From: Chelativorans alearensis
GTDB taxonomy: Bacteria; Pseudomonadota; Alphaproteobacteria; Rhizobiales; Rhizobiaceae
Direction of reading: 5' to 3'
Length of the DNA: 64,000 nt
Assembly (NCBI RefSeq): GCF_010993735.1
Contig: NZ_WQNI01000008.1
Span: forward strand, 62,001-126,000
Shown: piece by piece, positions 7,964 to 8,245 of the stretch
How positions within the stretch are numbered: the first letter of the stretch is position 1
How the letters are laid out: each line of letters opens with the position of its first letter
Made by a program: the position numbers and the translations under genes
Notes under the pieces: model-generated
Seen by the model: only the letters and a program-made list of their open reading frames with translations
What the model was told of the DNA's origin: nothing
Database searches by the model: none

Positions 7964-8061
7964 ATCGTTCACTCCGGCGGCCGCAGGCTTGCTCCAATGC
8001 AAAGCGCCGCCTGTCAAGGCTTCACTGAAAAAGGTTTAGCGGAAGGAGCAGGCCAGCGCAT

Positions 8062-8108
8062 CCGGCGACACCGATCGCCGGGCGCCCCTTCAACGGACCC
8101 GGCGATCG
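8062..8108 (-). promoter_or_regulatory. mutually exclusive hairpins downstream of the leu leader peptide
   Basis: Hairpin A pairs 8098-8108 with 8072-8082 (perfect 11 bp, CGATCGCCGGG type) and holds the leader stop codon in its loop. Hairpin B pairs 8075-8081 with 8062-8068 (perfect 7 bp). Both need 8075-8081, so only one can form. The upstream arm of A is encoded by the codons just after the Leu run, so ribosome position should choose between A and B. No U-tract directly follows B; the nearest run of T (8028-8032) is about 30 nt further. Confidence 0.6.
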
Positions 8109-8209
8109 CCGATAAGGCCGAGAAGCAGCAGGCTGGGGGCGAGCGCACGCGTGGCCGCGCCGCCAAAAGCGGACGGGCAGGAATGGCTTATGCGCTCAAT
8201 GTCCAACAT
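8090..8209 (-). CDS. candidate leucine leader peptide
   Basis: The 39-codon frame starts at ATG 8209 and ends at TGA 8090-8092, 126 bp upstream of leuA. Near its end it reads SLLLLGLIGDRRVR: five Leu and one Ile within eight codons (8111-8131). This is what a leader peptide for a leucine attenuator should contain. The -10-like CTATCA ends eight bases before the ATG, so the message may begin at the A of the start codon and be leaderless. No ribosome-binding site is visible, in agreement with this. It is inferred and not homology-tested. Confidence 0.6.
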   Translation of the reverse strand: MLDIERISHSCPSAFGGAATRALAPSLLLLGLIGDRRVR

Positions 8210-8216
8210 GGGGTTT

Positions 8217-8245
8217 TGATAGCCGAGGCGGTGGCACGGCGCAAG
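8217..8245 (-). promoter_or_regulatory. predicted promoter of the leu leader transcript
   Basis: On the minus strand CTTGCG (8240-8245) and CTATCA (8217-8222) are separated by 17 bp, close to the rhizobial housekeeping consensus CTTGAC-N17-CTATAT. Seven bases (AAACCCC) separate the -10 from the leader ATG, placing the expected first transcribed base on the start codon. Confidence 0.55.

Follow-up and report, generated by a model that had tools for sequence, protein, structure and literature searches.

The window, by which we mean the whole 64,000-nt stretch of Chelativorans alearensis DNA that was analysed, carries on its reverse strand a leuA gene for 2-isopropylmalate synthase. The product belongs to the leuA_yeast type (771 bits against a cut-off of 697), and it is 99% identical to the LeuA of C. 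xinjiangense, the nearest named locus. Upstream of leuA lies a short leader ORF whose peptide ends in SLLLLGLIGDRRVR and whose codons 27-33 hold five Leu and one Ile. A promoter-like CTTGCG-N17-CTATCA precedes it, followed by 7 nt and then the leader ATG. Beyond, on the forward strand (8315-9697), are divergent neighbours that we take to be a small ArsR-type-like ORF and two SRPBCC (AHSA1)-like ORFs. A sequence-only reading of this DNA had described the Leu-rich 39-codon frame, the promoter, two mutually exclusive hairpins, the first of which carries the stop codon in its loop, and the absence of a U-tract; all of these were found again where it had placed them (Table 1). It had overlooked one helix, the outer stem that we call S2. 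Scanning positions 6000-10500 with Rfam gave no leader family, the sole match being sub-threshold and at the far end of leuA (6184-6289), and no Rfam 15 family, leucine-leader families included, matched the element in the stretches scanned.

Table 1. Positions of the leuA leader features in the window
Feature	Coordinates	Strand	Basis
-35 element CTTGCG	8240..8245	-	CTTG placement in leaders
-10 element CTATCA, 7 nt 5' of the ATG	8217..8222	-	sequence
Leader ORF, 39 codons plus stop, putative leaderless start	8090..8209	-	sequence and comparison
Four consecutive Leu codons (CTG CTG CTT CTC), proposed to pair with the leuA start site	8120..8131	-	
CTT-A, last Leu codon and next A, near-invariant	8113..8116	-	177 leaders
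S1 5' arm (arm 2), CGATCGCCGGG	8098..8108	-	
S2 5' arm (outer stem), GAAGGGGCG, overlaps the stop codon, inside the S1 loop	8083..8091	-	
S1 3' arm (arm 3), CCCGGCGATCG	8072..8082	-	
Alternative inner hairpin, 5' arm	8075..8081	-	75.1% of cells paired
Alternative inner hairpin, 3' arm	8062..8068	-	
S2 3' arm (outer stem), TGCTCCTTC, no U-tract behind	8042..8050	-	
leuA ribosome-binding region, GGAG at 7975-7972	7964..7989	-	
leuA, 2-isopropylmalate synthase, leuA_yeast type (TIGR00970)	6236..7963	-	ORF list and profile match

In each of the 96 loci collected at the outset (80 named loci and 16 genus genomes, overlapping; 88 distinct leaders), a Leu-rich ORF precedes leuA. A covariance model, R1, was built from 40 of the 88 distinct leaders (alignment A2) and matches 273 of 297 sampled genomes of the family, in 103 of 109 genera, at E <= 1e-5. 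R1 also picks up the element before leuA in a named S. meliloti strain, Sinorhizobium sp. K101, Shinella sp. PSBB067 and R. leguminosarum. Twenty of the 24 genomes missed were examined: nine, two of which are in many pieces, gave no LeuA of the leuA_yeast type at E <= 1e-60, and the other 11 do have LeuA, nine of them with a divergent leader. In the remaining two, family genomes of about 1 Mb (L210 and L211) that retain leuA, no leader was located. In other families of the order, LeuA of this type was present in only 2 of 32 genomes examined: G195, which has the element, and G065, which has a related leader. Run over the order, R1 matched 53 of 199 genomes at E <= 0.01, and seven of the 30 loci fetched have leuA near (six in the family, the seventh being G195). 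The other 23 matches, with no leuA nearby, were taken as chance. The set of 177 leaders used below was obtained after removal of twelve weak matches and one duplicate locus.

The 3.7 Mb S. meliloti record CP090106.1, labelled plasmid pSymB, contains leuA and, judged by its size, looks like a mislabelled chromosome. Just 3' of leuA in R. leguminosarum (L363, 2411-2590) there is a sub-threshold Rfam match to BASRCI27 (Brucella sRNA CI27; 42.9 bits, cut-off 59.8).

The start of the leader was examined through its promoter. When the start is assigned by a rule blind to the promoter (the most upstream in-frame ATG at most 45 codons from the stop), CTTG lies at -42 to -29 of the ATG in 135 of 176 leaders and, in 130 of these, at -36 to -38; the mean in 200 shuffles was 8.0 and the maximum 18. 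An alternative rule that favours ATGs with an upstream CTTG raises the count to 156 of 177, and an SD-like 4-mer is seen in 13 of the 176 leaders under the promoter-blind rule. This promoter spacing strongly supports the putative leaderless start that had been proposed from the sequence. According to the parts of PMC7298713 and PMC10117765 available to us, the S. meliloti trpL transcript begins on its ATG.

Leucine codon use in the leaders is extreme. CTT makes up 596 of the 1015 Leu codons in the last 18 codons of the 177 leaders; in 80 leuA genes it accounts for 103 of 3279. The last Leu codon (counted if at least 15 nt 5' of the stop) is CTT in 177 of 177 leaders and lies 24 nt from the stop in 166. 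It is followed by A in 174, though the next residue varies (Ile, Ser, Thr, Asn, Met, Arg); most of the 177 leaders came via a model whose 40 seeds all have CTTA. Nine leaders that were found through LeuA alone (L201-L209) have CTT in every case and then A in seven. CTTA, like a G that precedes arm 2, hardly varies and belongs to no helix. The CUU-A string recalls the slip site of Ty1 for +1 frameshifting. A programmed +1 frameshift was tried as a candidate and rejected, the +1 frame being no more open than the +2 frame (median 33 vs 31 codons; 23 in shuffled sequence).

Taken alone, the leader RNA folds no better than shuffled sequence (z -0.41; core z -0.85), so that the evidence for its helices is comparative. 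In the window, S1 has 11-12 pairs and a 13-nt loop that holds the stop codon (8092-8090); S2, which crosses it, has 8-9 pairs (two of the nine being G.U), with 22 nt between. Among the 40 close relatives, 99.8% of S1 cells are paired and compensatory changes are absent. To cover the whole family, 99 distinct rows were aligned with a model lacking S1. Here 99.6% of the cells of S1 are paired; four of its 11 pairs have changed on both sides, in 34 cells against 10.7 in shuffles, and sliding the partner by one to three columns leaves only 19-54% paired. For the six pairs of S2 the figure is 99.7%, and three of them have changed on both sides; a seventh pair, the outermost, is kept in 75.3%. Least conserved, at 75.1%, is the inner alternative hairpin, which uses the 3' arm of S1. 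The alignment for S2 and this hairpin was fitted to those two helices, and its counts lean towards them. The sequence-only reading had proposed relatives as the check on its Leu frame and stems; across the family, they keep the frame and carry compensatory changes in both main stems, S1 and S2. Since S1 and S2 both covary and cross each other, an H-type pseudoknot is possible, and we infer that the two may form at the same time. What such a pseudoknot would contribute is a guess: geometry, timing or contact with a protein.

The same comparisons bear on two explanations that do not centre on reading of the Leu codons. The pseudoknot might be the binding site of a protein that controls leuA, with the Leu ORF secondary, as the available text of PMC1262725 proposed for the actinobacterial LEU element; the near-invariant unpaired CTTA and G would suit such a site, as would the better conservation of S1 and S2 relative to the alternative hairpin. 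We think this improbable, given that the extreme use of CTT and the fixed CTT-to-stop distance fit translation of the ORF. Still further down in our estimation, and very improbable indeed, is a small protein or attenuator RNA that acts in trans. It has a precedent in S. meliloti peTrpL and rnTrpL, as described in the parts of PMC7298713 and PMC10117765 available; in our 96 loci, by contrast, the N-terminal half of the leader is poorly conserved, and where an arm of S1 changes, the C-terminus of the peptide shifts from GDRR to RGCR types while the helix is retained.

A more serious competitor is ribosome-mediated transcription attenuation, in which S1 would be the antiterminator, and S2 with the inner hairpin a U-poor terminator or a pause hairpin for Rho. 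The geometry is classic for this: Leu codons just 5' of S1, the stop in the loop and two exclusive hairpins. The spacer from the end of S2 to leuA is also long enough for Rho in many genomes (median 80 nt), and C exceeds G in the 60 nt behind the stem in 124 of 177 leaders. The window and the family provide a positive control for the scan in the trp leaders, which were found at 29 of 29 family trpE loci examined. Whereas 28 of 29 family trpL leaders have a stem followed by at least 5 U in 8 nt, this is so in 15 of 177 leu leaders, never with more than 5 U. The scored stem was not recognisable as S2 in 21 of the 177; directly behind the 156 recognised S2 stems there are 0-2 U in 123 and 5 U in three. 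The leu leaders thus lack the GC-rich stem plus U-tract of an intrinsic terminator, and the terminator's inner stem is the least conserved of all. We regard attenuation of this kind, without a U-tract, as the main rival, though distinctly on the doubtful side, and leuA translation as the likelier target.

The trp leader in the window itself has the sequence MDTVANAKLWWWAC and lies before a fused trpE (18728-18618, reverse strand), with leaderless spacing and a U-tract terminator. Its ORF (18728-18684, reverse strand) looks leaderless, and the end of the leader reads TGGCCGC...GCGGCCA-TTTTCATT.

The sequence-only reading had suggested, in place of a standard terminator, termination by another mechanism at the second hairpin. 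In that form the suggestion finds no support: besides the poor conservation of that hairpin and the missing U-tract, the reading did not take the outer helix into account, and the Leu run matches the leuA start site. The absence of a U-tract together with this match points to a translational mechanism.

Starts of leuA were assigned in 162 of 177 loci, partly by the presence of an SD. The specificity of the match was tested on 60 divergent leaders by comparing native duplexes with all cross-species duplexes, corrected for both main effects and for GC. Between the Leu run and the leuA RBS, native pairs have a residual of -1.01 kcal/mol (GC-corrected p 0.0007; p 0.004 with stricter clustering, 50 representatives). 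Ten control region pairs gave a corrected p of at least 0.17 in eight cases, the exceptions being the Leu run with leuA +15..+40 (0.097) and with the spacer next to the RBS (0.041, 45 leaders). Five of the ten have p < 0.05 before GC correction, so the correction matters. A clear single case is L195 (leader CTCTTACTT, leuA AAGTAAGAG); the Leu run of the window matches the SD incompletely (GCCGGAG).

Constrained folding was run first on 69 leaders and then on 56. In the 56 leaders, the start site is unpaired at 0.465 when S1 is formed and the ORF occupied, against 0.372 when S2 is formed and the ORF free, and the difference between the S1 and S2 states is absent when the spacer and start site are shuffled. 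Blocking the ORF in both states reverses the order (0.516 unpaired in the S2 state vs 0.465), which assigns the effect to the free ORF RNA rather than to S1; that S1 alone opens the leuA start site was an idea left without support by this comparison. In the state that has S2 and a free ORF, the Leu run pairs with 5.2 nt of the start site and the remainder of the ORF with 4.4. Pairing with the Leu run falls to 1.3 nt after shuffling but stays at 4.9 nt with the start site of another genome, and much of it is therefore generic pyrimidine/purine matching. Against 250 start sites of other genes, the leuA site has a median at the 21st percentile, with 26 of 162 in the top 5%. Two further points weigh against the pairing: GGAG is present at 46% of leuA sites against a background of 28%, and among all 24-nt windows of the leader the Leu run pairs best with the leuA RBS in only 3 of 86 cases, ranking 20th or worse in 48. 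A pairing of arm 3 with the leuA SD (CGCCGGGAG, which shares the core of arm 2) was also considered. It is limited to certain lineages, with GGAG in 75 of 162, and since it is common in some and absent in others, it was rejected as a general mechanism.

On this evidence we favour a leader of the LEU-element type that senses leucine in a ribosome-dependent way and has leuA translation as its main target, a reading to which we give slightly better than an even chance. When leucine is ample, ribosomes would pass the CUU-rich codons, reach the stop and leave; the free run of Leu codons could then pair with the leuA start site, and leuA translation would fall. When leucine is short, a ribosome would stall on the Leu codons and cover them. 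S1 could form ahead of the stalled ribosome, the leuA start site would stay open, and leuA would be made.

Several known systems can be set beside this leader. The Escherichia coli leu leader also has a run of Leu codons before leuA, and it has a classical U-tract terminator and another type of LeuA. The closest counterpart is the LEU element, placed before leuA of most Actinobacteria (Seliverstov et al. 2005, PMC1262725). As it is set out in the available parts of that paper, it comprises an ORF with a Leu run, a pseudoknot, an alternative hairpin and a base stem between the Leu run and the SD of leuA. The paper describes mutations of the leuA leader of S. coelicolor as a misfit to classical attenuation and proposes a bound protein, and its conclusion states that changes of the Leu codons there were without influence on regulation, which counts against our reading. 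The features shared with our element, going by the same parts, are the Leu-run ORF (96 of 96 first loci), a pseudoknot (here predicted from helices that cross and covary), an alternative hairpin and a Leu run that faces the leuA SD. The pairing of the Leu run with the SD is a base stem in the LEU element (PMC1262725), whereas here it is statistical, and incomplete in the window. The LeuA of C. glutamicum, used as a control, is of the same type as here; the leuA leader of C. glutamicum has four Leu codons according to the available text of PMC4046766. The leuL1 leader of Streptomyces lividans, as far as PMC8079986 was available, is alike in its leaderless transcript, its Leu run (MRFGLLLLSCRGEGL), its position before leuA and the lack of a typical terminator, and differs in having 15 residues and in belonging to another phylum. 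The trpL attenuator, in S. meliloti (as partly available to us) and in the window, resembles the leu leader in its leaderless start, its run of Trp in place of Leu and its exclusive stems, and differs in its canonical U-tract terminator. Among the matches listed, in the literature as far as it was available, which did not extend to Vitreschak et al. 2004 or to supplements, no description of a leuA leader in Rhizobiales was found. The term 'LEU element' together with leuA occurs in PMC1262725 alone within the literature searched, and leuA is not mentioned in the main text of PMC10117765.

Four actinobacterial leuA leaders, from plasmid records, were compared directly. By eye, the Nocardia leader ends in ...ALLLGRRDGV and the Tsukamurella leader in ...ALLLGCRGGV; the others end in ...GLLLSCRGGGL (Nonomuraea) and ...GLLLLSCRDESSD (Microbacterium). 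In all four, the loop of S1 holds the stop codon. Nocardia, Nonomuraea and Tsukamurella also have a 7-pair S2 with the topology seen here, and Microbacterium has a 5-pair S2. The number of shuffles, of 300, that reach the S2 score is 13 for Nocardia, 17 for Tsukamurella, 32 for Nonomuraea and 110 for Microbacterium, compared with 14 for the window, 1 for S. meliloti and 4 for R. leguminosarum. The actinobacterial ORFs are shorter, at 10-16 codons in the part compared, and so is the spacer to leuA in three of the four. Their primary sequence also differs: R1 scores 16.8 bits on Nocardia (E 5e-4), and no leader match was listed for the other three. Codons in common with the rhizobial leaders are CTTCTTCTCGGC in Nocardia and CTTAGC in Nonomuraea and Microbacterium. 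In two Streptomyces plasmid copies of leuA, the scan used gave no Leu-rich ORF. A LeuA tree of 23 rows groups Rhizobiaceae with G195 (100/100) and leaves the tie between Rhizobiaceae and Actinobacteria without resolution, so that transfer is neither shown nor excluded. Descent aside, our element would work like the LEU element on the features tested.

The search was widened to 62 further loci of the leuA_yeast type (47 class and phylum samples and 15 others, among them a second Shinella leuA copy). In 21 of these, a Leu-rich CTT-A frame is followed by a stem that holds the stop codon in its loop; shuffles averaged 0.18 (maximum 2) in the same test, and the reverse strand gave 2. Ten of the 21 loops are 6 nt or less, which is too short for a pseudoknot. 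The frame test also counted CTTC at 10 loci, CTTG at two and CTTT at two, and the ten with CTTC are tentatively put down to the string CTTCGACTTA. CTT-A is seen in other Alphaproteobacteria as well as in two of the actinobacterial leaders: very short Leu leaders stand before leuA at L383, L384, L394, L396 and L397, and these end in CTT-A and then a tight hairpin whose loop, 3-11 nt long, holds the stop codon. The second leuA copy, L372 on a Shinella zoogloeoides plasmid, has a leader of its own, ALLLLLLRLIGDRWA, and a LeuA closer to those of Sphingomonas and Tistrella.

The broadest form of our preferred reading is a leucine switch that spans phyla, in Actinobacteria, in Rhizobiaceae and, as a related leader, elsewhere in Alphaproteobacteria. 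The Leu run would be both the sensor and the anti-Shine-Dalgarno strand for leuA, a stalled ribosome would open leuA directly without a terminator, and the near-invariant CUU-A would be part of the reading by ribosome or RNA. We offer this tentatively, and think it somewhat more apt to fail than to hold.

The element is a real, family-wide leucine leader whose promoter spacing is that of a leaderless start, and a proteobacterial counterpart, in another phylum, of an actinobacterial kind whose mechanism is open. Predicted in 2005, the LEU element was given no settled mechanism in the parts of PMC1262725 available; its counterpart in Rhizobiaceae, with its covarying helices and species-specific match to the leuA start site, turns this into a translational model that can be tested in tractable rhizobia, with the nearby trp attenuator as a built-in control. 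The near-invariant CUU-A gives such work a sharp, still unexplained handle. If true, the translational model would explain how a leucine leader works without a terminator.
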